This document shows, piece by piece, positions 7,349-40,386 of a stretch of 64,000 nucleotides of DNA. The number at the start of each line of letters is the position of its first letter. Within the stretch, counting starts at the first letter, position 1. The stretch spans positions 159,651-223,650 of the forward strand of contig JARVKI010000073.1 of the NCBI GenBank assembly GCA_036674765.1, written 5' to 3'. Origin of the DNA: Seiridium cupressi (taxonomy: Eukaryota > Ascomycota > Sordariomycetes > Amphisphaeriales > Sporocadaceae). The notes under the pieces are model-generated. The model was not told the origin of the DNA, searched no databases, and saw only the letters and a list, made by a program, of their open reading frames with translations. Both the position numbers and the translations under genes were made by a program.

Positions 7349-10300
7349 TTACGCAACTTCTTGGCTAGTTAGAGCTGAAGCATGTTTACCAAGTATGAGT
7401 AGGGCTACGCACCTCATCAACTCCATAATCCGCGAAGGAGAAGTTGCCCACAAGTTGAGCATCCCTCGAAATGATGCCACACACAAATTGGAATTCTCCA
7501 ATTCTGCCACAGTACCAGCACGATACGCGTCTCTCAATGACGATCCTCGTTGAGCTCGAAAGTTGATTCGGCCGAGGACGCCACTGGTCTGTTGCCGTAT
7601 GCTCATAGCCCTCTTGGGCTGCAACAAATCCATCATCTCTTGATCTGCGAGGTCTCCCGTGATTTTGAGCACCTGCGATAACTCTAGATAGAAGATGTTT
7701 TTTGTGCCAGGAAACGACGAACTAAACTCCTTATAGGAATCAGTTTCCTTGAGGTCATGGCCCCACGTCGTGCCCGCAATAACAGCTAGTATCACGAGAT
7801 CTGTATCGGCGCCAGATTTGAGGTATTCCTTTAGTAGTACGTGGAGAGAAGTCTCACGAGTGCTAGAGGTGGTTTGGAGTGAATCCATCATATAGTATCG
7901 GAGAAACAGAATCCAAGCCGGCGCTTCGCCACTGGCCAGATAATCCTGGACGTCGGTGGCCGCTGGGTTGGAGGGAAGGCTAATCTGACAAGATTCGTTT
8001 GGTGACATGCCTTGGATGAAGAGATTTCGGATGAGGCTGCCGTCCCCGGAGATACTTGCTGTTGTAGGACTTTGTCTTCTTGGGGTAATAGGCTCTGCGC
8101 TCTGGTCCATTTTCTGAAACGCGTCGCAGGCATAGGATGAGAATTCTGTACTTATCGCCCAGTGAAGGACATCCATGTCGGTACTGTGGTTAACTAACCC
8201 AGGATATTTGTAAGCACAATAGATTGTGCACCGCCGAAGAGGTGGCCTGCGTTCCAAGGGAGAATTTTGCGACAACTCCCTGTACCGAGCGGAGATAATT
8301 ATCTAGCTGGTCCAATACGACACTTGTGCATCGAAGCGTATCGGAGTGTTCCAGCATAAGATCTGTAACGTCATCAAAGATGAGCCGTACCATATTATAG
8401 ATGGTCGAATATCTTAGTAGGTGGTCGCCGGCTGCGAATTGTGCCTCAGCAACGTGTAAGCGTAAATGGTCTCCAAGTGATACTGCGGCATGATCATTTT
8501 GCCAGTAGTCGCGGAGAAAGTCCCGAACACTGCGGTGCAAAAAGCCCATGTGAAATTTCCAGTAACGATGTTGCTTAAAGTAATCACCCCGATGGTTTGT
8601 CGTCGTTTTAATCTCGAGTAAGCCCCGAGTGAGGGAGTCTAATTGACGATGAACGGAAATCTGGCGCCTTTCTATCTTCGAGCCGACCAGGCCATCGCAA
8701 GGGCGATTGTATGGGTCGGAAAGCTCTTCTAGTCATGACTATACGAGAACGTTGCAATCGCTGTCAAAAGGGTTATTTAGAGCTAAAGATAGCATTTGGT
8801 CGGACCTTTTGCGAAGGCTAGGGTCTACCGGAGTCAGTATGCGTCGAAAAAACTCGTTGATATCTCGTGGAGTGCTATTTAATCTTTCCATAAGAGCTGT
8901 TGGAGAATCGTCGTAGGCCATGCCAATCAGTAAAGAGCGCACTACCAATTTCGCCCATAGGAATACCCCATCGGCCATCTCCACGATTCTCTCTGACACT
9001 TCCTCAAAAATGTTTGACAAGTTTGCGCTGGGAGAAACTGGCATCCGGGTGGAAAATTGTGCCCGCGCAAAGTAGCGTATGTCGCCTCGGGTAAGTTCGT
9101 GTAGATGGATGGCGCGATCGACTTGGTCAAATGTGTCTATGGACTCAGAGTGTGGCCGTGCTGAGCATATGACTTTGACGTTCGCTCGCTGTGACCATTC
9201 CTTGAGCATCCGTGCCAGTTCAAAATGTTCAAGATTATCCCCTTCATATTCGTCCAATCCATCGAGCATCAAGCATAATGATTGAGATGGAAGGTGTGTA
9301 TCTATCAGTTGTTGCATTGCAGACTTGAGGAAATCAAGAGAGTGCAGAGTATGCACATTTGTTATCAGGGGACGATTGTCTGCGGATGCCTCCCATATCT
9401 TTCGAAACACAACACGAATTAAAGCTGGGCATTGCCTGAGGATCTCAAATAGAAGTGACCGGTAAAATCCGACAAGCGACATCTGCAGCTGATCGCCGGA
9501 ATTCCAGAAAAAGAAGCGGGCAAAGAGTAATGCTTGATCACCAGCCCACTGCTTCAACTCATGTTCGAGAACGGAGTCATATCCAAGATATTTCATCAGT
9601 GTGGATTTTTCCGAACCTAGCCTGACGATCAGCTTCCTTTGTTGACGACTGCCAGCAAATGACCAGCATACTTTTCATAGACATCGAGGAAACAAGAACG
9701 TTTTAAAAGGGAGGCCACCTACCAGCTTTGCCAGAAATAAAGAATAATCCATTGCTATCCGCTAGAAATAATTGAAATGTTTCCGAAGCACGTGCCCGAG
9801 CCGACAACTGCGCAGCGTCGTCTGATAGTCCACCAGCAAAATGGAGGGATCCAGTGATTTCGGAATGGGAGTCGTTGTTGTGCAGAAAGTCGCTACTTGG
9901 GTTAGATGAGATGGGCACTTTTCCGTGTCCCAAAATATTGCCATGAGCAGGCACATCCGCGTCGGATTGAGCTCGAGCTTCTCTATATCCATCGCGGAAT
10001 GGTTGATGTTTCTGCAACTCGGCCCCAGATCGTGTTGAGTTGGCTGTGCGAAAAGACAAATCAGACGGTTGATGGGACAAGCTCGGGTGCTTATCGAGCA
10101 ACCCTTCAAAAGTGCCAGTCTCTGGGCCATTGATGGATTCTTCGCGGATGAACATTGCATCAAAATAAAGGTGCCCTAGGATCTGGTTCTCAATTGCAGC
10201 TTCTGCCGCTGCCCGGTTCCAGTCTCGAACTGCAGTGTGGAGCTCCTGTGAGGACGAAGAAGAGCCTTTGACTTGTAGGCGTTGGATGACATCCATAAGC

Positions 10301-11911: not shown

Positions 11912-12209
11912 GATTCTTGCCCCTGAACCAGCTAGAACAGTCCAATGAACCGCCCATTTACTCACGAGACTAATTTCCGCCCGCCAAGCTATCCAATTTA
12001 GGCTTAGCAAGGCTGTGCCGTTCCGGTCGGAGTCCAGCGACTACCAATAATTCTGTCAAAGTTAAAGTGATAACTGAAACCCTGCTGATATAAATACTAT
12101 ATGGGATAACATGAAGTAACTGTCGTGAACCCATTCGAACCAATAACCGAACACTAGCCGTACAGGCATTGATGATACACACGGGCAAATGCACTAAAGC
12201 GACGCACCT

Positions 12210-12440
12210 CGCACACAGTCCATGCTCGGTCCTCATGACCTTGTCCATATCCTCCCACCGCATGCGAGCGTACAGCTCCGTGATCACGGCCCGGTTTGCC
12301 TCCCATTCCCGGACGGACTGGCCCGTGGTCGAACCGCATTTTTGAGTTTGCCTCACAGCGGTTGCAGGGTCATCAGTGGCTTGGGACATTGTTCGAATCG
12401 GAACGAGGAGGCTGAAGCGAAGGGCGACACGTCTTGACAT
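12210..12440 (-). pseudogene. Clr5-domain fragment
   Basis: A minus-strand stretch contains REWEANRAVITELYARMRWED followed by MDKVMRTEHGLCAR. This matches the pattern of the fungal Clr5 domain (Trp-rich start, LY, then a short helix and HGF-like end), usually at the N-terminus of ankyrin or TPR proteins. A donor-like GTGCG follows, but no downstream domain is found, so I read this as an isolated 5' fragment. It lies between two HET-like pieces on the other strand. Confidence 0.45.
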
Positions 12441-12629
12441 GCATTTCCAGCGAGTTTTCGGGCCGCGAATGAACCTCCTAGCCGCCCCAGCAGATCGTCG
12501 GCTGAAGGTATTGGTTGTTCACAAAGGTAAGAAGGCGGCAGCCTCCTGAGGTCTCCCCTCCTCTGCGGACCCGCGCGCAGCACCCCTTCCACGTGATATG
12601 ACGGGCCGACCCAGTCCAGACTAGCAGCA

Positions 12630-13182: not shown

Positions 13183-14617
13183 TGGAAGTAGAGAAAAGGA
13201 TCGGCCCAATTGAATCCGCTTCAACATATCATCCCGAAGATAAAGTTCTCCAATTAATTTGTATTGGTATAGATGTCTGTTCTTTGGCCCTGACGGCCGT
13301 TTCTTCTCTGCTTCGAAAGTATAACATTGATCCCAAGTCTATTGGGCGTCTGGAAGTAGGCACCGAGTCCCTCATTGATAAGGCGAAGTCGTCAAGTCGG
13401 TTCTGACCTCACTGTTCGAGCCTAGCGGCAACACAAGTCTGGAGGGCATTGACACGATTCATGCCTGCTACGGGGGTACCAGTGCACTTTTCAACGCCGT
13501 CAACTGGGTACAGTCCCGTTCTTGGGACGGCCGTGATGCCGTTGTTGTTGCGTCTGATATCGCTCTTTACGATCAACCTGCTTCTCGTCCCACCGGCGGT
13601 GCCGGTTGCGTCGCAATGCTTATAGGCCCCAATGCGTCGCTTTCTTTGGACCCAAGCCTCAGAGGTGTTTACATGACCAACACTTACGACTTTTACAAAC
13701 CGGACCCCAACGTCGAATTCCCACTGGTCAATGGTCACGATTCAATCGTCTGCTACCAACAGGCTCTGGATGGTTGTCACAAAGACCTGCTTCGCCGTAG
13801 CAAGACTGCTGCTATGGACACCACTGAAGGTGGTCCCGCGATCAGCAAAGTCCTTGGTCTGTTCGACTACATGGCCTTCCATACCCCAAACTGCAAGTTG
13901 GTCAGCAAGTCATACGGCCGGCTCAAGTACAATGATATGCTCGTGTCAGCCGCGGAATCTGACTGGGAGGGAATGCCACCTGAGCTTCGTAAGCTAGGCT
14001 ATGAGGAGTCCTTAAGAGACAAGGATCTGGAAAAGGTCCTAGTTGCAGCGACCAAAGCTCGGTTCCAAGAGCAAGTCGAGCCGTGCATTGCCGCACCCTC
14101 ATTGTGTGGCAACATGTATACGGCAGTCTCTACCGCTCTCTGATCAGCTTGATCAGCAACATTGATATTTCGACTGCACAAGGCAAGACCATTGGAATGT
14201 TTAGTGTAAGTTGCTTAGTAGAACCTGGAATCAGAGCAATACTAACTTGGAGGTGAAAACTAGTACGGAAGTGGTGCAGCCAGTACCCTTTTCACCCTGC
14301 GAGTCACCGGCGACCTTTCCAGCATAGTTCAGAAGGTCGATTTGATGGGTCGTCTGCAAAAGCGACACATTAGGACTCCGGAGGAGTACGAACAGGTGAG
14401 CTCCCATTTTGCTTGGAAATAATAATCAAAGCAGCCCCCCTCCCCAATAATAGAGTTCTGACCCCGATGCACTAAGGCCTGCGCTCTCCGACTGAACGCC
14501 TACGGGGAAAGGAGCTACAAGCCTGTGGGTGACATCACCTCCCTCTTACCTGGGACCTACTACCTGGAGAGCATTGATGAAGAGTACCGCAGGACGTACC
14601 TCGTGAAGGCCGGATGA
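13183..14617 (+). pseudogene. HMG-CoA synthase (hydroxymethylglutaryl-CoA synthase) copy, 5'-truncated and frameshifted
   Basis: Family role: condenses acetyl-CoA and acetoacetyl-CoA in the mevalonate pathway. Visible blocks are LALTAVSSLLRKYNID, IGRLEVGTESLIDKAKS, a HACYGGT block with the catalytic Cys, SRPTGGAGCVAMLIGPNA, YDFYKPD, FHTPNCKLVSKSYGRL with the active-site His, GNMYTA, FSYGSGAAS and the C-terminal PGTYYLESIDEEYRRTY. Introns near 14206-14263 and 14396-14476 splice well. The 5' end (about 70-80 residues including the start) is missing. A one-base loss near 13385-13392 and another near 14121-14135 shift the frame. It is a paralogue, not a housekeeping gene. It lies beside an MFS exporter and an HR-PKS remnant, which suggests a former self-resistance gene. 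Confidence 0.88.
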
Positions 14618-15259: not shown

Positions 15260-16215
15260 TCATGCAACAAGGGGCTTTGGCTTCGCGCCAGTCTCTGCTC
15301 CAACTAACTTATTCGCATCTGCATGACGCAAATTCTTCCACTGCGCGAACAGACAAGCCAGGAATCCTACTCCAAGAAGAGCAATAGACCAAATCCATGC
15401 CGAGTGGAGTCCATTTACATATGCGTTCACGACGGTGCGAAGTTCATCAGGATTGCGAAAGTACTCACGCAATCCGGAGGAGCCTGCATCAAGAATCTTT
15501 GCAGGCGTGATGTTGGAATTATCGGTTGGCAACGATAAAAGCATGACATTTTCCATGATAGTAGTCGCAGCTGCAATGCCAATTGTAGCGCCGGTGAATT
15601 GGAAGACTAAGCCGTAGTGAATTAGTTGGCTACATCATAAGTATGGGAATTGGGAAGAGATAAACGGAGCAGAGAATAACCAATACAGTACTTACGAAGA
15701 ACCATGGAGACGGCGGTTGATATATCGCTTCGTTAGAATATCGATTGCGCTATAATAATTGGAACTTGAATAGTCAGGCCGGTGCCGATGCTGACCACAA
15801 TTTGATACCCGATATAATGGGCGGCTGTAGATTTGGTATCAAGGGTGTATATTAAGCCCTGACCGACAACGGAGAAGATGCTCCCAACCCAAAAGAAGGG
15901 TTGCCACCAGCCCACCTTGCCGATGAGTGCAGAGCCTACCAAGGTGAAAAGAGCTGTGGTAGAAAGTGATCAGTGGATTAGAATACTGTCGTTGATGGTT
16001 GATAACGATACATTTGGTCGAGCCGGCGGTATGCGCAGGCTTGCATACGGCAACGAGAAAGGGAGGCTTACAAGTTGCAAGCACCGAAGGCAGCGTGCGT
16101 ATGCCGGACTCGGACGGGGAAACTACCTGCACAGCCTGGAAATAGACCGGCAGGTTGTAGTTCCTTGCAAAACTCCCGCAGTGAATACAAAAGCAAAAGA
16201 TGAGAGCCGACGCGT
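15260..16215 (-). pseudogene. MFS drug-efflux-type transporter, C-terminal half
   Basis: Read on the minus strand, it holds the second half of a 14-TM drug:H+ antiporter: YNLPVYFQAVQ then SPSESGIRTLP (a very common motif in these exporters), GSALIGKVGWWQPFFWVGSI, GYQIVVSIGTGLTIQVPIIIAQSIF, STAVSMVL, FTGATIGIAAATTIMENVML and the last helix with SAWIWSIALLGVGFLACLF, ending at 15260. A TAA at 15730-15732 interrupts QSIF-RSDIS, consistent with CAA to TAA. Introns near 15660 and 16000 are plausible. The N-terminal half is absent: homology stops at about 16200, exactly where PKS homology starts on the other strand. Confidence 0.72.
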
Positions 16216-18385
16216 TGAAATGGCCTACCACTCTGGTAAGTTGAATTCTCGTATCTCTATTGCTTCCCGTTTCGACTGTGATTGCACTTTCTCGCACGCC
16301 GGGATTAATTGGCCGATAGCACATATGAAGGAAGTTGGCGAAAAGTATGAATCGTTGCTCGGGCCGTATATCACCAGCTCCAGTCCAAAAATTGCTTTCT
16401 ATTCGACAGTGTTGAAAAAGGTAGTCAAGGAAGAAAAGACCTTGAATGCAGCATACTGGCGCAAGAATCTCGAGTCCCCTGTGCTGTTCAACACTACCAT
16501 GGAAGCGCTCCTGATAGACCACAACTCCAACAATCTATTCCTCGAGATCGGGCCACATTATGCACTAGCTGGGCCATTACGACAGATATTCAAGCAGTGT
16601 CAGCCCGATGCACTTTACCTATCGACGCTTGCAAGAGGCAGTGATGACACGCTGAGTCTGTTGACTGCATTAGGTAATCTCTTCGTGAAAGGTGTTGCTG
16701 TGGACCTTAGCCCTATCAATCAGGGCGGCCAGGTCGTCACTGGTCTCCCAACATATCCTTGGAACCATGAGGAGAGCTTTTGGGATGAGGGTCGGATTTA
16801 CAGAGAATGGAGGATGCGCAAGTTCCCCCGCCATGATCTCCTCGGAACACTGGTTGTTGAAGGTAACGCTATGGAACCTACCTGGAGAAACGTGCTGTCC
16901 CTGGACGACGCTCTATGAATTCGTGACCACGTGGTCAACCAGGACATCGTGTTCCCGGGTGCGGGATATGTCGCTATGGCCGGAGAGGCGCTACGACAGG
17001 TGACGGGAGCAGAGGACTTTACAGTCCAGAACCTTTCAGTCCAAGCGGCCATGATACTGCACGAACATATCTCTACTGAGATCGTATCTTCTCTCCGTCC
17101 ACATCGCCTGGCCAATAGCTTGGACTCGACGTGGTATGACTTTGCTGTATACTCTCACAATGGTAGCCACTGGACGAAGCACTGTGCCGGCCAAGTTAAA
17201 CAAGGCGAAGCTGAGTCGAACGCCGTCTCCGCCGCTCCGCAAGTCGCGGATCTCCCACGAAAAATATCGAGTGCACGTTGGTACCAAGCACTGTCGAAAG
17301 TTGGTATTAACTACGGGCCAACATTTCGGGGTTTGCACAACCTATCCGCACATCCCGTCGACCATCTTGCGGTTGCTAAGGTTGACAACTACGTCAATCC
17401 AGGTGATTCGACTTACCAACAGCATCCAACCACAATGGATTTCGCTCTACAGCTCTCCAGTGTTGCGGCATATAGGGCTCAGCCTCGGGACTTTGTTAAA
17501 ATGCTCCTGCCTTCATACTTTGGAGAAATATATATGAAGCGCCCGAAGTCAAACGTGGGGTTGCAGCTATCTGCAGTTGTGTTTGTGACAGCCCGAAGTG
17601 CCGTACGCGGTGATGCCTTTGGTACCATTGGTGGTGAGGTTGTCATGAAGCTCCGCAACGTGCATTTCGTCCCGGCTGCTGATGATTCGGCTGCTGATAT
17701 CAATCCCCACGCCGGCGTGCGTCTTCAGTGGAAGCCCGACACCGCATATCTCGACTCGACCAACTTGATGAGAACGACGAGAAGCATCCAATCCAGTTTT
17801 TCCATCGTGCAACGACTACTGCTGCTTTGCTGTATTGACTCTGTTGATAGGCTAGTAGACCTACCTCCTAGTGCAACGTCGCACCTAAACAAGTACAGGA
17901 TGTGGCTTGCTGGTCATGTGCAACAAGCCAAGGCCGAGGGCTACGAAGCGGTAGACGATGCGAGTTCTCTTTTCGCCCTCTCGTCGGCTGAGAGGCATCA
18001 ACTCATCAAAACAACAGCCAAGGAAATCGAAAAGTCCGAATCAGCCCCTGTTAGCAAAGCCATCGTGCGAGTCTTCGAGAATACTGTAGATATATTCACA
18101 AGAAAAGCGGATGCGCTAGACTTACTGATGCAGGATGATATTCTAAAAAATATTTACGATCTGGTCGCCGAGTTCTAGGACTTCAGTGACTTTCTTAGGC
18201 TCCTGAGTCACAAGAAACCGAATCTCAAGATCCTAGAAATTAGTGCTAGAACCGGAGCAACGACCGCTTTGATTCTCGAAAGTCTAGTGTCCAGTTCTGG
18301 GGATCGGGCGTTCCAATCGTACACATATACCGATATATCTGCAGGGTTCTTCGTTCAGGCCAAAGAAAGATTCAAGAACGCTCCG
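16195..18385 (+). pseudogene. Highly reducing polyketide synthase fragment (AT end, DH, start of C-methyltransferase)
   Basis: Begins inside the acyltransferase domain: MAYHS splices over an intron (GTAAGT at about 16232 to TAG at about 16320) to AHMKEVGEKY. It ends AT with ARGSDDTLSLLTALGNLF and the linker LPTYPWNHEESFW. The dehydratase follows, with catalytic His in RDHVVNQDIVFPGAGY (the usual Gly of HxxxGxxxxP is Gln), YGPTFRGLHNLSA and HPTTMDFALQ. A methyltransferase start follows, NLKILEISARTGATTALILE, in which two Gly of the SAM loop have become Ser and Arg. In-frame stops are TGA at 16916-16918 (expected Trp) and TAG at 18176-18178. KS, the rest of MT, ER, KR and ACP are absent. It ends abruptly near 18385 in ankyrin sequence. 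Confidence 0.85.
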
Positions 18386-19048: not shown

Positions 19049-20771
19049 TCAAAAATCCATACCTTCGTCTTCTCTTTCCCTCTTTACCCTCGGATCCCGC
19101 TCGTCCTTCATGAGCGTCATGACAAAGCCCCTGAAATAGTCTACGTATGGCTTGAGACTCGTCTTCTCCCAGTCCTGTACGCTCTTGCCAGATTCTTTCT
19201 TGACCTCAATATCATCTGCGTCCCCGCTCCAGCTGTCGATTTCGGATAGTAGACCCTGTATCGTTGGGACCTCCAATGGGTTGAAGTCCTCGAGGTATTT
19301 CGTGTCAATCGGTACACACACTCGGCCCGTTCCGGGGTGTACCACAAAAGGCGATTTGAGCAAATGGTTCAGCTTCTTCGAGACTTCGATATCCAGTCGC
19401 GGGTATGTATACTCGAGCACTATATCTTGCTTTGCGTCGCGCAGTTTCTCGCTGTCCTTGTTATTGTTTAACACATTCCTGGCCAAAGTATCGATGTCAG
19501 CCCATTTGGAGGAGCTGGGCCTGCCGGGCGAGGAATTCCATTTCTTTCGAAGTGCCTCGGCGAGCGTCTTGTTTTCGAGGAGAGTTAACAGATGTTGAGA
19601 TCGCGTGTCTGAGGCCCAGGGGTCTTGGGTTTCGAGAATATCATCTTGGAAGTGTGGTGCTAGAATGTCAATGGAGCGGCTGTTTCCCTTCACGTCAGCT
19701 CTCGCAATCGAGAAAAGGATGCCGACGGTGCAAATAGGTTTTGAAGGAGGGCATCGGAAAAGTCTCACCTTATATGTGGGTGCAGAGGTCTCCATAGGTT
19801 GACCTTCTTGCCGCCTTGACTACCACCCTTGATGACCTCCAGATACCCTGCGATCGCCCTGCGTTTCTGGTCGTCCATCGTTCGCGCCTTCTTGTCACAT
19901 ACCCATGCGTGCGCACCTCTTCGTCCAGAGTATACCCACATGATGTGCTTGAAGCCAAAGTCTTCCCTCAGCGCCGCATCGATTACCTTTATTGCCATGA
20001 CCATGAACCGCCAGCACTTGGTGCAGATATTCGCCTTGTCGCAGCATGTTCTGATCTCGTCGTAATCAGTCAAATCGATATCGAAACACAGTTCCTTGGC
20101 CAGCGGCTTGAAGGCGCTGCTATTCCTCAATGTCTTCCGGTCGCGTGGATTTGTGGTGTATACCGGGCCGATTTCGAAACGGGATGGCAGTAGTCTGAGA
20201 ACATCCTTGCGGAGAAGGTCGGCCGTGGGAAACGCCTGGTATCGGAGATATGCATCGTTGGAGAGTGTGAAGGCAAATTCACGATGTCCAAAGTCATTGG
20301 TGGGAGTCGGGGAGTGATTGAGCCATTGGAAGAGGTGCCGCCACGGGAACAGTCGCTGGTAGAATGTGCGCATAAGTTCGGGATCCGAGTTGGAAGATGG
20401 AGCACCATTATTTCTATGCGAGTGTTAAAATAACGGCCGTGATTGGGAGATTGACAAGAAGCGCAAAACGACGATACGTACATTGGTGATGATGGTGACT
20501 CGGGGGAACTGGACAGCTTATTCTCTTGCGGCCGGGAACTAGGAAATTCGTCGTCCGATTCCACGTCTGCAAAGAGGTCCTCGAGCTTTACTTCCTTCTT
20601 CTGCTGGACATTCGTGCCATTGGAAGCACTCGGTAGCGCATCTGGCTCAGCCATTGTGATGTCCTCGTCAAGGCTTGCTTGGCTGTCGCCATTCTGTAGC
20701 GTTGCATCGCTCATGGTCTGTTCGGCACCGGCGGGCGGCGTATTGGATTCAGCTGAAACCGAGTGTGGCAT
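19049..20771 (-). CDS. PRI1: DNA primase small (catalytic) subunit
   Basis: Makes the RNA primers for replication as part of the polymerase alpha-primase complex in the nucleus. Three exons, 20771-20482, 20413-19769 and 19679-19049, give 521 residues without interruption. I chose the start MPHSVSAES because an upstream in-frame ATG (20807) adds only 12 residues. A low-complexity acidic N-terminal extension of about 95 residues precedes the catalytic core. The core begins MRTFYQRLFPW and contains FDIDLTDYDE with the catalytic Asp pair, the zinc-binding CCDKANICTKCW and WVYSGRRGAHAWVCD. The second part has SIDILAPHFQDDIL, then KLNHLLKSPFVVHPGTGRVCVPID. This is an essential single-copy gene amid degraded sequence. 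The intact frame shows that the surrounding decay is selective, or that mutation targeted repeats. Confidence 0.93.
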
Positions 20772-21647
20772 CGTATCAACCTCGCAGAACTGAAAGAGTC
20801 GGCTCAAGTGTATTGGCGTGAGGGAGCAATGCTGATTGGCAAAAGTGAGGATACCTTTCGGACAGAGAGGGACTGTTTAATTGAAAGTCGAGTGGAAACG
20901 CGCCAGCAGACGCGTCCATAGCGCGTTGATTGATTTTGGGTGGACCCGCTGCCCCGCGTCCCCGTCACCGTCCCAGCCAATTGACTGACGGGTGGTCCCG
21001 GTGTAGAGCGAACGCACCATCTACAGGACTCATGACCAGAACTAATCCATCTTTGATACTACAATATCAGCAGAAAAAGACTTTGGAGAATCCCTCTCAG
21101 GTTTTATGTCGTGTTTTATTTTATCCTCGAAGCGCTCATTAGCTGCTGAAATAAAACTCCAAAAGTCCCGAACCCAAAGGGCCGTAGTCCATTTCGGCAG
21201 CATCATAGAAGCCTGGCGGTGCGATTCCGTAGAAGACCATCCGGTCACCTAATCTGTTCTTCTGCTTTTATTTTTCTATAAACCATAAAGCTAATAATAA
21301 ATGTCTACCACATCTACAATCACGCAAAAACCCTTGATGCACCGTTTTTGTCAAGGAAATTAACTCACAACAGGAGCCAACTGTGTATGGTCGTAAAAGT
21401 GCGACAACCAATTACGATTCACGGAGAAAATGGTCTGATGCGGAAGGGGACGATTCCGTGTGGGCCATGCGATTTGTTTGTGGGGCACAGGCAGCTCACT
21501 TTCTCCTGCTGAAATAGAACTAGAGTTGAGCTTTAAACGTTTAGACTGATGTTAACAACGTGAACGTCGACCATCTTGTTTTTCATTCCGGAGGAATCGC
21601 ATAAACGAGATTTTGCGACAAAATCCCATTTGAAAAAATCCTTCAAG
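20772..21647. other. Divergent intergenic region
   Basis: About 880 bp separate primase (minus) from the EBP-family gene (plus). It presumably carries both promoters. A pyrimidine-rich leader precedes ATG 21648; nothing else recognised. Confidence 0.5.
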
Positions 21648-22430
21648 ATGGTCGAACGTGCAACAGACGATCTGCCGCTCGAGGAACAACACTACCATCC
21701 TTACTACCCTCTCGGCCTGGTGTTGCCCGGATATGTTCCGAACGACATTTCCGTGCCCACCTTGATATCGTCATTCGCGGCTGCGAGCATCTACGTTTTC
21801 GTATTGACGGCCTTCGTCGCACGTCGTGTTCGACCTAGCATCACCAATGGCGAACTATTGACAGCTATGTGGTTCATGCTCTGCGGTTGCATCCACTTAT
21901 TCTTCGAAGGTATGGCCAATTGCATCTCGAGACGCGCCTGCGGTCCAGTGACTGAACCACGAACAGGGTTCTTTGCTTACAACAACGCGGATATGCCAGC
22001 ACGCGCCAGCCTTTTCGGCCAACTATGGAAGGAATACGCCCTGTCTGACCGCCGGTACCTCACACGAGACCCCTTCGTCGTGTGCATGGAGACTGTCACA
22101 GCCTTCTGTTGGGGCCCATTATCTTTTGTCGTCGGCTGGTATATCATCAAGAGAAACCCATTCCGGCATCCATTGCAGCTAGTCGTTAGCCTGGGTCAAC
22201 TCTACGGCGACGTCTTGTACTATGCCACATTCTTTTTCGAAGATTCAGTATTTGGAGAGGTCTTCTGTCGGCCCGAAAGATATTATTTTTGGGCATATTT
22301 CGTCATGCTTAACGGATTCTGGATTGGCATCCCACTTAAGCTGTGTGTGCAGAGTGTTTTGGAGACTGGCAGGGCTTTTGCCCAGTTGCAGGCCAACAAG
22401 GACCAATCGGAGGACAGGAAGACCGTATAA
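21648..22430 (+). CDS. EBP/EXPERA-family membrane protein (sterol delta8-delta7 isomerase-like)
   Basis: Family members isomerise sterol double bonds in the ER or bind related ligands. The intronless frame from ATG 21648 gives 260 residues, near the usual size. An in-frame ATG at 21576 is less likely because it adds a charged, non-conserved extension. Visible features are HPYYPLGLVLPGYVPND at the N-terminus, CGCIHLFFEG (His and Glu typical of the active site), WKEYALSDRRYLTRDPFVV, METVTAFCWGPLSF and YFWAYFVMLNGFWIGIP. Four hydrophobic helices are evident. Fungi often carry several divergent EBP homologues, some recruited to secondary metabolism, so a role in ergosterol synthesis is not certain. 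The frame is intact. Confidence 0.85.
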   Translation: MVERATDDLPLEEQHYHPYYPLGLVLPGYVPNDISVPTLISSFAAASIYVFVLTAFVARRVRPSITNGELLTAMWFMLCGCIHLFFEGMANCISRRACGPVTEPRTGFFAYNNADMPARASLFGQLWKEYALSDRRYLTRDPFVVCMETVTAFCWGPLSFVVGWYIIKRNPFRHPLQLVVSLGQLYGDVLYYATFFFEDSVFGEVFCRPERYYFWAYFVMLNGFWIGIPLKLCVQSVLETGRAFAQLQANKDQSEDRKTV

Positions 22431-22861: not shown

Positions 22862-23144
22862 CTAACAACTGCAAGTGACAATCAAATCACCCTGGCGGCA
22901 TGTTCCTCCGTCGCAAGCTGCTAGACAATCAGCTCGAGAATGATAGAGGCCCTTCGTGCAACTAATGAGTCATTCAATTAGTAAGCCTCTTTGGCAAAGC
23001 AACTTGTCTGCCATAGGAAACTCCAAGACGGGCTTCATATCTTACTCACCGAGATTGAAGTTCGGATTCCTGGGTTGGGGCTGCAAATGCCGTGTCAGAG
23101 ACCATGGCGAGAGCAACAGCGACCGCGACGTTGATGTACTTCAT
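22862..23144 (-). CDS. Small secreted cysteine-rich peptide, defensin-like (CS-alpha-beta)
   Basis: Two exons, 23144-23050 and 22961-22862, encode a 64-residue precursor. The 88-nt intron has donor GTGAGTAAG, a perfect TACTAAT branch site and acceptor ATTAG. Residues 1-21 form a signal peptide (MKYINVAVAVALAMV, ending AFA), residues 22-32 a short acidic propeptide ending in Arg. The remaining 32 residues carry six cysteines at 33, 44, 48, 53, 62 and 64, spaced C-x10-C-x3-C-x4-C-x8-C-x-C. CxxxC followed by CxC is the cysteine-stabilised alpha-beta signature, and GTC-x8-C fits the GXC gamma-core. Arthropod- and fungal-type defensins share this plan and act on membranes or cell-wall precursors. 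The target here is unknown. The leader before the ATG (TCAAG-ATG) is favourable. Both exons are too short to stand out as open frames, so the gene is easily missed. Confidence 0.72.
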
Positions 23145-24161
23145 CTTGAATGTTGATTTGGAAAGTTCGATTAGATGTTGCATTGGATTAAATGTTGAGT
23201 CAACACCCATACCCAAGCTTTGGCGACGGGGCCGGAGCGGCTTTTAATACGTGTTCGTCTGACGTTAGCATTCAATGGAGGCCTTAGTATGATTTCATTA
23301 GGTATTAGCGACTTAGACGAACCAGACTTGAAGGAGCGGCGAAGGATCCGAAGGACTAAAGGATTATGCGATAATCGATAGCATGCCAGGAATTCCAGGT
23401 AAATCGTGTTTCTGCAATTCCAGAGGATTACTAGACTCAAGTCACTAAGCGCTCGCCTGCAAGCCCTTCAAGTACATGTTACCGATCTACGTCTGTGATA
23501 CCTTCACGCGCATCATCCTATCCAGTCACAATAGACACACTACACTACAAGTCTGAGGAATTGAGACGTTCGCGTGATCTATTACATTCGAAGACAGCGC
23601 TGAAACACAATTGTACCTCGCAACAAGTGCGAGGTCCCATCGCATAGGGCATGGAGTGTTGATTCTACCAGACGAGATGAGGGCGCAAGTGCAAGTGGAG
23701 CAGGTCTTTCAAGGCGCATCAAGGACAAGTTTCCACGAATTGCAGGAGTCATGCACTCTTATACGACCCCAGCATTAGTTCGATTATTGGCTGAACATGA
23801 ACCCATACGATTGAAGCGTTCTCCGGACCGTGGTTTCAGGCGCATCAGGAAGGTGAATGCTAGATCCAGATCGGCTCATGCTAAAAGTACAGGACAATGG
23901 ATCTTCCATATCGCACCCTTGTCTATCGACAGCTCTAGATCTTAGCAGCAGCTTTGTAACCATGATAGAACTCGGAGTTTAACGTGTCCGTATAATCAAC
24001 CTCAATCTTCTCATCATGACACCTCACAGCTTGAATCAAAGCATTTAATGACAGCCCTCCAGGTCGTGCCCCAGGCCATTAAACTTAGGGTTGACTTATA
24101 AGTAGAATGACGCTAAGACTTCTGCCCCTCTAAGTAATCTGGATTCTGGCGTCACTATAAA
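23145..24161. other. Intergenic, upstream of the defensin-like gene
   Basis: About 1 kb. Apart from the TATA-like element near 23245 I see no gene, RNA or repeat. Short open frames lack family features. Confidence 0.5.
23241..23250 (-). promoter_or_regulatory. TATA-like element of the defensin-like gene
   Basis: Minus strand reads GTATTAAAAG about 97 bp upstream of the ATG at 23144, with a C/A-rich leader in between. This is a plausible core promoter; weak evidence only. Confidence 0.25.
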
Positions 24162-26499: not shown

Positions 26500-27655
26500 T
26501 ACTGGAAGGGCTACATGGATGGTGTATTATTTGAGGTATTTTGACTCTCGTGACTACCATGCAATGCAAAACTTCATTGGTTAACTAAATGTATAGTTAG
26601 CATTAGGGTGCTGTACTGTAGCATATGCGGTAGGGAACCGGAGAACCGGAACCATTTTGTAGCTGCATCCCGCAACTGTACCACCTCGTCAAGAGCAATA
26701 GCGCTGGAGATAAATGACTGCCTCCAATCACATGAAGCTGACGGGCAGTGAATACCCTTGCCCTGGATCCAGCTCCATGCCCACTACCTATCTTTTGCAA
26801 CACGTGGGCTGCGTGACGACCATTCCACCACTGGAGAACGTGGCTGCAGACACTAACCCAAGAGGCGCGACGCTCTCGATTGCGCCTCCACCTCCGACGG
26901 GTCTGGATGTCGACTAAAGTTGAGAAAGCGAACCATTAATTGCAGTTACAACAATCTGACTTGGGTTGATTGGAAGGCGGCACAGGGCTGAGCATAAGAT
27001 ATCCAAGATACCAAAGCGTACATAGGTAGATAAAGTAGCCACTAATTATTAATGCGGTCAGTATTACCAATCCTATACTGTCTCTTGGCACAGTAGCCGC
27101 TAGTAGCAAACTGGGACTGGGCTGGATCAGCTTTCCCAGAGACCCGACTATCGGCAAAAACTTGGTGAAATACCTGATAGATGTGCAACTACATTAGTTC
27201 AATCCTCCTCGCGACAAATTCGAGCTCCCGCTATACTGGATGCCAGCAACTTGGATCCCAGATAATAGGTGCTATTCCGCTACCAGCCTTGTACTGCAGG
27301 CCACTGAAGTACGTGCCTGGTTTCATAGAGTGGGAAGTGTTCTGACGTGCTTCTTGAATACTGTTAATGTGTTCCATGAACTTTGATGGCAAAAGAGTTC
27401 ATTCCGCGTGACGGCACTTTCTTTCGGATGACCCCTTCTGCCGGTGCCGCTTAGCCGTCACCAGATTTAGCTGCGAGTCAAAATAGCATCCCCCCAGTGC
27501 CGTGAATCCCGAGCAGCCTAACGTCAGATCTGACACTAATTGCTCCACATGACTTTTATTTTTGATTTTTCTAGAATACCTGGAGGCCTCGTGCAATCCT
27601 TCCCAGTCAGCTTTAATATCGAGGAACAGATTGCACGCAAGGATTACGCTTCGCA
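26500..27655. other. Intergenic; one short membrane-type frame
   Basis: About 1.2 kb upstream of the metacaspase. On the minus strand, 27157-26936 gives a 73-residue frame with one strong hydrophobic segment (IGLVILTALIISGYFIYL). It has no family resemblance and may be chance. Nothing else seen. Confidence 0.4.
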
Positions 27656-29035
27656 ATGGCTCACTATAATCAATGGCACGGCGGAGGAGGCCAAGAAGGT
27701 GGATACTACCGACCTGACAGCGGCTACGGTTACAGTGGACCACAGGGAGGATACAGCAGCTACCCGCCCCCACAACTGCCGCCGCGTCCACCTCAACGCC
27801 CGCAATGGCAAGAGTCGAGTTACGGCCCAGACGGGTTCGGACGTCACACACCACGTTACAATGGTCCGACTTATCAACCTTCACCATCGCCATTCCAACC
27901 TCCGCAAGGGTGCGGTTACTATGGGTACCCCGTGGGACAGGGAGGTCCGCCGATGCATGGATACAGGACGAACAGAAATGCCGCGCCTGTTCCCCATGCA
28001 CCGCAGCAATTTGGGCAGGGCGCACCACCAGGTTACACATTTCAATATTCGAACTGTGCCGGCGCACGCAAAGCACTCCTCATCGGTATCAACTATATCG
28101 GTCAAAAGAACCAATTACGCGGCTGTATCAATGATGTGAGGAATCTGGCGGCATTTCTGATCGAACGCTACAACTATAAGCTTGAGGACATGGTTATCCT
28201 GACCGACGACCAATCCGACCCCGTTAGGCAACCTACAAAAGCAAACATCATACGTGCAATGGGGTGGCTGGTCCAAGGAGCACGACCGAACGACTCTTTG
28301 TTTTTGCACTTCTCCGGTCACGGAGGGCAAACTGAGGATCTGGACGGCGATGAAGATGATGGCTATGATGAAGTCATCTACCCTGTCGACTTTAGAGTGG
28401 CTGGCCACATTGTTGACGACGATATCCATAATATGGTCGTGAAGCCTCTTGTTCAGGGTTGCAGGCTCACGGCTATCTTCGATTCATGCCATTCGGGTAC
28501 TGTCATGGATCTGCCTTACGTCTACTCGACTAAAGGAGTCTTGAAAGAGCCCAACCTCGCGGCCGAAGCTGGTCAGGGTGCCTTGAGTGCAATCTCAGCA
28601 TATGCGACTGGTGACATCGGCGGGGTGATATCATCGGTGATGGGGTTTGCCAACAAAGCATTACGGGGCAACGATGGTCACTACAGGACGATACAAACCA
28701 AGACCTCGCCAGCTGATGTAATCATGTTCTCCGGTTCTAAGGATGATCAAACTTCGGCAGATGCCATGATTGCCCAGCGAGCGACCGGCGCCATGAGCTG
28801 GGCCTTTATCACTGCGCTCAGACAGAATCCTCATCAGCAAAGCTACGTGCAATTACTGAATAGCATTCGCGATGTGCTTGCAACTAAATACTCTCAAAAA
28901 CCACAGCTGAGCTGTAGCCATCCGTTGGGTATGCCAAACAATTTTTCTGATGTCACCATAAATGCTAATTGGCCGCTTAGATACAAACATTTTGTTCGTG
29001 ATGTAGGGTTACCCTTGACACCTGACTGGTCTTAA
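27656..29035 (+). CDS. Type I metacaspase
   Basis: Arg/Lys-specific caspase-fold cysteine protease linked to stress ageing, proteostasis and programmed death in fungi. A single 459-residue frame, no introns, starts at [10 protein letters not shown]. Residues 1-130 form a Gly/Gln/Pro/Tyr-rich prion-like prodomain. The p20 region begins at [10 protein letters not shown], with the catalytic His near 222 (HFSGHGG) and catalytic Cys near 278 (DSCHSG). An acidic calcium-site-like segment, [13 protein letters not shown], lies between. A p10 region with [15 protein letters not shown] follows. The C-terminus has LSCSHPLGM and then a divergent tail. All key residues are intact. Absence of introns is a little unusual for the family and could point to a diverged or retro-copied paralogue. 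Confidence 0.93.
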
Positions 29036-32790: not shown

Positions 32791-34178
32791 TCAAGATTCA
32801 CCCATACCCAACAGCTTCGCCATATCACGCAACTGAGGCGACGGAACATGCGCCAACCAAGATGCAGGTACCAGTTTCTCGAGACGCTTGATCTGCATTG
32901 ACCGATATTTCTCCGATACAACGTGCATAGGTACAATATCTCCGATGCTCATGTGCGGTGCTGTGAGAACACTCTCGCGTCCGTTCAACGTGACGTGGTT
33001 GTTCCAGATATACATGTCTCCTGGTTTGAACTTGATTTTTAGTTGATGTGATGGACGTTGCATGATTTCCTGGTACTTCTGATATGTCTTGCGAGCTCTG
33101 GAGAACTTTTCAAATGGTGCCGTCAAGAATCCTGCTCTATGACAGTTCCATCGGATGTGCTTGACATGTTCGTTGTAGTCCAAAACCACCGCGGGTTCCG
33201 ATGTTGCTTGATACATCGAGGAGCTGGGTGTCTCAACCACATGTCCAATTACAGCTGGAATATCGGTCAAGAAATGCGCGTCCTCTGGGTCCTCATAGTT
33301 TAATGTATCCCAGGCAGCGATACCCGAGACGAATGTAATGAGGCTTTCCCCTTCGAGGCAGTAAAGACCCATGATCTGGGCTGGTTGCTTGATGAAGGAC
33401 TGTTAGCGACTTTCTCCGAAGGGCTCTGGTGAAGTTAACATACTTCGTATTGAGCCTGATCCACACGCGGCAGAATGACATGGTCGGCCCTGTAGCCCGG
33501 AGGAATCGATCCTTCTTGCATCCTATCTTCGCCACAGTTGTCTCTCAATTTCAAACTCGAATCAAGGGCTGGTTTAGGGCGTGTGAAAACATGGTCGAAA
33601 ATCTGTTTGAGCACCTGAGTCACGAAATTGTCCTTTCCTGCCTTCTCACATGTGATGTCCGGTTCAGGCGAGTTTGTAACCTTGATGATAGACTCTGAAG
33701 AGCTGTACAGCAGCAATTCAGCAATCTTAATCCTTACGTCGTCTTTCAGGCCACATGTAGGATCTTGAGGAGGAAAGATTATGTTCCAATCTAACTCCTG
33801 GATCTTGATTGTATCGGTCGTCCATCCAATTTTCTTAGTTTGGTATTGTCCCTTGGATTTCTCCAGTGGTCTAGCTACCAGTGGTGCGAAGACACGCACC
33901 CAGGCTGCTGGGAAGTCTGTGGCCGACCTATCTTCCCACTCGACGTGTAGGGTGGTGATTATTGTCTTTCAAAGAGTCGCCTTCCTTATACGGGCGTCAG
34001 TTTCGTCAATGCTGAAAGCTTGATCTACTGATCGCGAGGTACTTCGGTCTCCACGAGCATCATACAACCATTGTGAGTGGAATGCGTACTTGTTGTCGTG
34101 GAAGTGAACTTCGAGCCCATATCCATCCCAGAGGACAGAAACCCTGAGGATTGTTAGATTTCTGGAGGGAACGCTCAT
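32791..34178 (-). pseudogene. TauD/gamma-butyrobetaine-hydroxylase-like dioxygenase with lost iron ligands
   Basis: The reading starts MSVPSRNLTILRV with the small N-terminal domain seen in gamma-butyrobetaine hydroxylase-type enzymes (GLEVHFHDNKYAFHSQWLYD). A TGA at 33967-33969 stops it, yet the same frame resumes with TTLHVEWEDRSATDFPAAWV. An intron (33443-33400) joins QAQYE to SFIKQPAQIMGLYCLEGES. The C-terminal core has QRPSHQLKIKFKPGDMYIWNN and ends HVPSPQLRDMAKLLG. In family members iron is held by HxD and a distal His in LHGRE. Here they read RVD (ILPRVDQAQ) and LNGRE, so both histidines are replaced. With the stop this makes the enzyme dead. Neighbours include an SDR, another oxygenase and a prenyltransferase remnant. 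Confidence 0.75.
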
Positions 34179-35919: not shown

Positions 35920-36776
35920 ATGGAAGATCAGCCTATGATTTTCATTAGCGGCGTCAACAGAGGTAAGTCAAGTACATACTGCTGACTGTACCACGTATTA
36001 ACAATGTAGGTATTGGCAGCGCCTTGGCTCGCGCGCATCTTTCTAGGCCGAAATATGTAGTTTTTGGAAATGTTCGCAGCGACAATGCCCTAGAGGTTGC
36101 CGAGTTGAAGGCGTTCTCTAAGGGATCTGGTTCTAAGCTATTTCTGGTCAATATTGAGAGCTCCTCCATTACAGATCCGACAAAGGCCATTGAAGAGCTT
36201 GAGTCTGCAGGTATCAACCACATCAATGTCCTCATAGCCAACACTGCAGTCAGTCCGCCCCTCGGGCCACTTGAATCGACCAACACGAAAGAGATGGCTA
36301 GCGTATTTAGGATTAACACTCTTGGTCCTTTGGCTTTGTTCCAAGCCTGTCATCTGTTGCTTGCGGAGTCCACAAATGCCAGGTTCGTAACCATTAGTAG
36401 TGGAATTGGTTCCATTGGTAATACGGAAGCCTTCGGCTCTCACCTGGCACCGACGTATGGTGTTTCAAAGACTGCGTTACAATGGATGACCGTGTAAGAC
36501 ATGATACAGACTTAACACTGGAATGATGGCCGGCTAACAAAAATGTACAGTGCAGCACATTGTGGTAACAAATGGCTGACTGCGTTTGTCGTAGACCCGG
36601 GATGACCACCATTTCCTCAGCTCTCGTTGACTTTGCTAATATTGGCTAGCTTCCGTCAAACAAATATGGGTAGTATTGCTGTTGCGCATCTGGGACTAGA
36701 AAAGGCTCCCCACACTGCCGAAGAAGGCGCCGAGCGAATTATAAACCTCGTTAGTAGATCAGCCATACCCACGTAA
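35920..36776 (+). pseudogene. Short-chain dehydrogenase/reductase (norsolorinic-acid-ketoreductase-like), truncated by stop
   Basis: NAD(P)H-dependent oxidoreductase of the SDR type common in polyketide clusters. Exon 1 (35920-35962) carries IFISGVNRG; the intron 35963-36009 joins it to GIGSALARAHL, giving the full TGxxxGIG-type cofactor loop. Exon 2 has VLIANTAVSPPLGP, INTLGPLALFQACHLLL, the catalytic Ser region FVTISSG and YGVSKTALQW with Tyr and Lys. After an intron with donor GTAAGA near 36495, the frame reads WLTAFVVDPG and then TGA (36603-36605), where family members have a Trp. The 3' part, NMGSIAVAHLGLEKAPHTAEE, is still recognisable up to TAA 36776. One TGG-to-TGA change therefore seems to have killed an otherwise conserved gene. 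Confidence 0.75.
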
Positions 36777-38657: not shown

Positions 38658-39835
38658 CTATATAAATGTGGTTGTTCTCGCTACCTTCAACGTTAGCGAA
38701 ATAACACAGCCACTGTAAGCCATGGGAGGAAAGGGTGCCGCAACGTACGGATTATTAATCGTATCCCTATGATTGCCATCTGCACCCCAATTCCATTCAA
38801 ACATACTGTATATTTTCTCATAGTTCTCCACCATGGTCTGATTATCCTTGAAATGCTGCCACACAGGGACATAACCTTTCACGTCTGGTATTTCCTGTCT
38901 AGGCCTCATCTCCCAGTAGTACCCGACGGCTTCATAGCGACCGGTTGGATCCATGACCGGATCACTGAAAAGCTTCGAGATATTTTCATCTACCTTGGCT
39001 GGCTCGTTTAGAAGAAAGTGTTAGTTTCTGTGTAAGACTTGTAGCATTTTGTGTGTTGCCTCGTCTGTTCACTTTGCACCGTACTTGACGACATTTTCCA
39101 TCGAAGGAAAAGAGTTTGACTTGGTTTGGATGTACAGCTTTACCCGTGCCCCGAGGCTGGGGTCTACACAGTCTTTGGCGACCATCTCCATGGGAAGGGG
39201 CTCTGGGCTGATGCTAAAATATCCGCAGGGATCTAGGCTTTTGGTAGTGTCGATTGGACCTTTCAAGGCGCTCTGAGGCCCGTAAGTATAGACTTCGTGG
39301 TGAGGAAGAAGTACGCCTTCAGTGGTTTCGCTCCACCATACAAGTCCATCGCCAGGAAGCATTGAGGCAATTTTTGGCCAACAGCCGCTGTTTCTTCTTC
39401 TGAGAGGAACCATGACTTGGCAAAATGGCTGAGCCACCGCATGTCCGCCTGCAGAGCACTGGATATGCCTGGAAGAACAGAAAATAAATCTTCTTCAGGC
39501 AGAGGACCTGAGCCATGGCCTAACTGATCCCCAGGGAGATCAAAAGTGAAGCGCAGACAAGGCTCGCTACTGTCACTAAAATTGATGCTCAGTTCAAAGG
39601 CGGAACCATGGTATGTCAGTAGCGAGTTGGTATTAGGCTCTGGTCCAATAACTTGAGCAAAAGTACCACGGAAGAAGGGGGTATGAGACTCTTGTTCCTC
39701 TATCGTATATGATCCCGTGCCTCTAAATAAGGCGGAGAATGCCGGAAGACAGTATCGAGACCAAAGTTCGAAGCGATCGTCATTTCGAGCAACATCGGAA
39801 GACTGCCAATGGGCCTTGACGCCTATCGATTCTGG
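38658..39835 (-). pseudogene. DMATS-type aromatic prenyltransferase, degraded
   Basis: ABBA-fold enzymes attach a dimethylallyl group to indoles and related aromatics. In N- to C-terminal order on the minus strand are SRYCLPAFSALFRGTG, FFRGTFAQVIGPEPNTNSLL (typical first strand region), GSAFELSINFSDSSEPCLRF, CFLAMDLYG then PLKAYFF (classic LKAYF-P motif), EMVAKDCVDPSLGARVKLYI followed by SNSF, and the C-terminal MDPTGRYEAVGYYWEMRPR and DVKGYVPVWQHFKDN. These blocks fall in at least three frames: changes occur around 39240-39300 and after VVKYGAK near 39066. The N-terminus has no clear start. The gene is therefore broken. It closes a set with a TauD oxygenase, SDR and 2OG oxygenase that looks like a former prenylated-metabolite cluster. 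Confidence 0.72.
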
Positions 39836-40386
39836 ACATTTTCAGTCACCACATTAGCGTCATAGTCATACGGTTGAAAAAGGCCGAGCTGCAATGGTGC
39901 ACCATATAGTGGTGAGGTTAACTAGCGTGCTGAATAGCTTAGCTTACGCTTGTCAACATAAATTTTTGAGAAACTGCGAATTTCACTCGAGAGAAATACA
40001 CGGGTACTAGTATAAGACGTACTAAGGGACATATAATAAGACGCTCTGCTTCTCCTTTCAGGCAGCGTGCCGAGGTACAATCTAGGGTAGTGGTACGACC
40101 CATGACGTACGAAATAGCTTCTGACCCAGCAAACGTAATCTTCATGGAAGTGCTTGGATTGAATCAGGACTGCGATTGTTATACGGGGTGGTTACTGATG
40201 CTTCTTATTCTCTTCTAGTCGACCAGCAAATATATCATTTACATGTGGAAATGTTTATTGATATACGAGCACGGAATATTCATCAAACCCTCAAGTCACA
40301 TGGCTACAACCGTACACAGGAAGGTAAATATTCAAAAAAGATTTGTGGTTTGTAGACTAATTTTAATCATAAAACTCATTTCAGAT

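Follow-up and report, generated by a model that had tools for sequence, protein, structure and literature searches.

Within the 64,000-nucleotide stretch of DNA analysed here (the window), Seiridium cupressi carries a small two-exon gene on the minus strand whose product is best read as a divergent fungal CS-alpha-beta defensin-like peptide. Defensin-type secreted peptides are known from many fungi, and the gene very likely encodes a further one. The existence of the two-exon gene and the secreted CS-alpha-beta type of its product are well supported by the gene anatomy, the controls for chance and a fold predicted from the single sequence, and we consider it highly probable that the gene is real and, jointly, that its predicted product has the CS-alpha-beta fold. 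In full, we propose that S. cupressi, or a species very close to it, has here a genuine and probably unannotated gene, of which a single copy was found and whose secreted defensin-like product would most likely act on competing microbes; we assign this reading a probability of about 0.5.

The joined frame of 195 nt encodes 64 amino acids followed by a stop codon, with the reading frame kept across the splice. A first-pass annotation had described a hidden two-exon gene at 22862-23144, and its coordinates, splice signals and translation were all reproduced. Under fixed criteria exactly one spliced model was obtained for the gene; its splice and branch signals are strong, and its features are as follows.

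23050..23144, minus strand: exon 1 (95 nt), with the start codon, the signal peptide and most of the propeptide, ending in phase 2
23082..23144, minus strand: predicted signal peptide, residues 1-21, cleavage after Ala-Phe-Ala
23050..23081, minus strand: propeptide, residues 22-32 (11 amino acids), with a single Arg at its end
22962..23049, minus strand: intron (88 nt), phase 2, GTGAGT donor and TTAG acceptor
22977..22983, minus strand: branch-site-like TACTAAT, read from the sequence
22862..22961, minus strand: exon 2, with the last base of the Arg codon, the mature peptide and the stop codon TAG
22865..22960, minus strand: mature six-cysteine peptide of 32 residues (33-64), C-x10-C-x3-C-x4-C-x8-C-x-C with Gly-x-Cys4

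The signal peptide was called by a home-made hydropathy measure combined with the -3/-1 rule, which returned 21 residues with Ala-Phe-Ala before the cut. The propeptide had been described as acidic, which it is, but only mildly so (net charge of about -1.2). The Arg codon that precedes Cys1 is split by the intron and completed by base 22961, and retention of the intron leads to an immediate stop in the frame (CGG TGA).

The cysteines lie at positions 1, 12, 16, 21, 30 and 32 of the mature peptide, in the spacing and with the Gly-x-Cys4 that had been claimed for a 32-residue cysteine-rich part, and form the CS-alpha-beta framework Cys1...Cys2-X3-Cys3...Cys4...Cys5-X1-Cys6. In the sections of PMC5234102 drawn on here, the superfamily is defined by C...CX3C...C...CXC, with Gly at -2 of Cys4 in most members; the latter is present as Gly-Thr-Cys. 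The idea that the spacing itself defines CS-alpha-beta defensins goes too far: this general framework is shared, but the x10, x4 and x8 intervals are not (PMC5234102, same sections). The peptide had also been credited with a short N-terminal loop, which is wrong because Cys1 and Cys2 are separated by 10 residues; the short and unusual part is the four-residue link between Cys3 and Cys4. When the mature part was folded alone from its single sequence, the predicted order was strand-helix-strand-strand (E4-6 H9-15 E20-23 E28-31). The best model has a pLDDT of 86, with 31 of the 32 residues at 70 or above, and includes the helix followed by a two-stranded sheet that the CS-alpha-beta fold requires. 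A poorer model of the whole precursor has the same helix and two strands. Comparison of the model with solved structures by Foldseek and VIA-align 2 gave no significant match.

Plectasin has a Cys3-Cys4 spacing of 10, unlike the spacing of 4 in the present peptide. In precursor plan and cysteine framework the gene resembles the fungal defensin-like peptides (fDLPs) plectasin, micasin and eurocin and the families fDEF1-fDEF8. A signal peptide, an acidic propeptide with a basic end and then the defensin is, according to the text of PMC4165938 considered here, the plan of part of the known fDLPs, and the present precursor shares both this signal-pro-mature plan and, with part of the families, a propeptide that ends in a basic residue. 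It also shares with them C...CX3C...C...CXC and Gly at -2 of Cys4 (PMC5234102, in part). Unlike fDLPs, the peptide is unmatched by the Pfam Defensin_2 profile and its predicted mature form starts directly at Cys1. The introns of fDLP genes are placed in the helix, the c-loop or the signal peptide, at variable positions (PMC4165938, as far as drawn on), and some of the genes are intronless (PMC4165938 and PMC5234102, likewise). In contrast to the genes described in those portions of PMC4165938, the sole intron here is a phase-2 intron at the junction of the pro and mature parts, within the Arg codon before Cys1. The zytrisins of Zymoseptoria, a large family of fDLPs from a plant pathogen, likewise have low similarity to other peptides beyond the six cysteines (PMC5234102, sections drawn on). 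Their genes are interrupted twice, by a phase-0 intron where the signal peptide ends and by a phase-2 intron within the codon for Cys4, and over 70% of zytrisins are neutral or negative according to the main text, although the note to Table 1 reverses the percentages (PMC5234102, same sections). In the present case, unlike the zytrisins, a single gene was found, with a single intron that interrupts the codon preceding Cys1. It is conceivable but doubtful that the peptide represents a new family of fungal defensins, confined to Seiridium or near relatives and marked by a minimal CS-alpha-beta peptide of 32 residues that begins at Cys1 and has a four-residue Cys3-Cys4 link, by an intron placed exactly between the pro and mature parts, and by a target that is not lipid II.

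As to function, a role in microbial competition is the likeliest, held at roughly even odds on the strength of the peptide class and of the precedent of VdAMP3 (PMC9438471 and PMC9632046, in the parts consulted). VdAMP3 of Verticillium dahliae is a CS-alpha-beta peptide deployed by a plant-infecting fungus against fungal competitors (PMC9438471, in part), and the present product is likewise a predicted secreted CS-alpha-beta peptide of a plant-infecting ascomycete with a possible role in competition. The gene is presumed to be expressed. The precursor would enter the secretory pathway by way of a cleaved signal peptide, and a Kex2-type or related protease would probably cut behind the lone Arg that precedes Cys1. 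The 32-residue peptide would then fold in the order strand-helix-strand-strand, presumably closed by disulfides Cys1-Cys4, Cys2-Cys5 and Cys3-Cys6, and would most likely work extracellularly against microbial competitors in bark or in host tissue that is decaying. The lipid II contact residues of Py4 and plectasin are given, in the part of PMC8877149 drawn on, as the N-terminus, Phe-2, Gly-3, Cys-4, His-18 and Cys-37. With the exception of the cysteines, the plectasin-type residues (Phe-2 and Gly-3 before Cys-4, and His-18) are absent from the present peptide, given its predicted mature start at Cys1. His-18 of plectasin stands just before Cys3; in the present peptide Cys3 is preceded by Ala. 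Contact with the target would then be of a kind other than that of plectasin with lipid II; the gamma-core loop, from Cys4 to Cys6, might for instance bind membranes or the cell wall. The mature peptide is near neutral: basic and acidic residues number three each, alongside one His. With a cut before Cys1, its calculated mass is about 3322 Da in the reduced form and 6 Da lower in the oxidized form. Because of this charge and the missing lipid II residues, the antimicrobial role of the predicted peptide is plausible but unproven. Of the first-pass interpretation, the gene for a secreted CS-alpha-beta-type product is well supported, whereas its function as an antimicrobial or effector peptide is a suggestion.

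Two serious rivals to the competition role accept the same gene and fold. Seiridium is a plant-infecting genus of tree-canker fungi, and a small, secreted, cysteine-rich peptide from such a genus could be aimed at the host plant, working in the apoplast as an effector that either suppresses or elicits host responses. The near-neutral charge and the lack of plectasin-type lipid II residues would suit such a role, as would the view, in the portion of PMC9438471 considered, that small cysteine-rich effectors are likely to be defensin-like in fold even where they lack such activity. However, the gene has no host-specific feature that we could see, and the characterized fungal members of the fold class act mostly on microbes in the literature covered; a host-directed role is rather unlikely. 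Less probable again is a peptide with a signalling role in the growth or fitness of the fungus itself, comparable to anisin-1 of Aspergillus nidulans. Anisin-1 and pechrysin have lost antibacterial activity and the anisin-1 gene is linked to fitness (PMC5234102, sections drawn on), and the single copy and neutral charge of the present peptide would fit.

Relatives of the predicted microbial-competition peptide were sought in genomes, proteins, structures and the literature. In the S. cupressi genome (45.36 Mb in 228 contigs, with the window at the end of its contig) the mature part as query found one copy at E values up to 10, a count that comes from a search tool whose first look scored merely one or two candidates. 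A Pfam scan of the product returned no family at E up to 10, Defensin_2 and Gamma-thionin included, with HMMER filters that discard most matches above E of about 0.1; the profile search against defensin families that the first-pass annotation had called for thus does not recognize the gene. A PDB sequence search at E up to 10 returned no defensin, just two talin entries with E of about 0.9. Among 5.8 billion proteins, compared where their length was 0.55 to 1.75 times that of the 64-mer, no candidate had three five-residue words in common with it, and none of 64 pattern stretches in prokaryote genome contigs was confirmed as a relative. When the profiles were run against the S. cupressi genome, Defensin_2 gave six matches at E up to 10 and Gamma-thionin two at E up to 1, none above the cut-off; in the 14 control genomes they gave matches in three and four genomes, respectively, again none above the cut-off. 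One of the eight loci from these genome searches, L010, has the CX3C...CXC arrangement: at 1501-1623 of contig C17 of the same genome, a frame combines it with Gly-x-Cys at a Gamma-thionin E of 0.02, below the cut-off. This candidate paralogue was dropped as a probable chance match because the sequence upstream yielded no spliced signal-peptide model. The gene is probably unannotated, since the protein collection includes at least one protein encoded on this S. cupressi contig yet none like the 64-mer, although a longer or different gene model may exist there. In the literature, a search on fungal defensins with Pestalotiopsis gave nothing on point among titles and abstract starts, and one on the S. 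cupressi genome or effectors gave nothing on this gene by title among the matches listed.

Chance is a poor explanation of the gene. Across all six frames of the window, a relaxed CS-alpha-beta core with a stop no more than 10 residues beyond it turned up once, at this gene, against once in total over 150 shuffles of the full window that preserved dinucleotides; when Gly at -2 of Cys4 was also required, the figures were one and 0/150. Random anchors in the window gained a comparable upstream spliced signal-peptide exon in 12 of 20,000 cases, and an unspliced one in 310 of 20,000. These shuffle and anchor figures are approximate, as the criteria were fixed after the gene was known, but a joint chance hit is improbable because the cysteine core and the spliced signal exon, both rare, coincide here. 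Codon usage speaks neither for nor against the gene, as its score of 0.096 bits per codon is equalled or exceeded by 22% of 3,000 random open 64-codon pieces. The least probable reading, a non-expressed chance assembly of splice-like signals or a disused copy, would fit the missing homologues and the uninformative codon usage, but is opposed by the rarity of the core and of the spliced signal exon in these controls, by a frame without stop or break and by a fairly confident fold predicted without an alignment.

The neighbourhood was surveyed by comparing 40 stop-to-stop pieces of the window with Pfam, which placed the following among others.

15863-18178: polyketide synthase (PKS) pieces (acyltransferase, dehydratase)
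19049-20424: DNA primase small subunit, two pieces
21564-22430, plus strand: EBP-type protein, tail to tail with the defensin-like gene
27617-29035: metacaspase

The two frames closest to the gene, 23174-23467 and 23604-23942, matched no Pfam family. The region had been described as dominated by competition and recognition genes; PKS, NPHP3_N (NLR-type) and prenyltransferase pieces are indeed present, but so are the DNA primase, EBP and metacaspase pieces, and the region is better called mixed. Among the best 120 of 5227 matches, the metacaspase frame (27617-29032) has 100% identity over 67% of the query to a protein labelled Seiridium cupressi, a species of the Sporocadaceae (Amphisphaeriales, Sordariomycetes), and 95% over 93% to a protein of S. 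cardinale. A second copy of HMG-CoA synthase (13382-14608), with a stronger match on contig C7, adjoins the PKS pieces on the same strand. Extra HMG-CoA synthases in fungal clusters serve as self-protection against an inhibitor of this enzyme. One match in this region contains an internal TAG, and the HMG-CoA synthase/PKS locus may be a relic or contain introns; the few neighbouring pieces scanned held no further PKS domain. NPHP3_N and DUF7791 pieces on the minus strand (8190-9674) are probably parts of one NLR-type fungal gene, and a Clr5 piece lies at 11970-12518, just under the cut-off. Pieces of a tryptophan dimethylallyltransferase (39263-39841), a TauD-type dioxygenase (32791-33402) and a short-chain dehydrogenase (35967-36497) are possible further secondary-metabolite genes. 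The contig end (63700-64000) is extremely A+T-rich, as is typical of mutated repeat blocks in fungal genomes.

Short spliced genes for cysteine-rich peptides are easily overlooked in annotation, and the cysteine framework together with gene anatomy can indicate one even in a case where our family searches came back empty. If expressed, the gene would contribute a compact scaffold of the defensin-like kind from a tree-canker genus, and would provide a testable candidate for how these fungi defend tissue from competitors.
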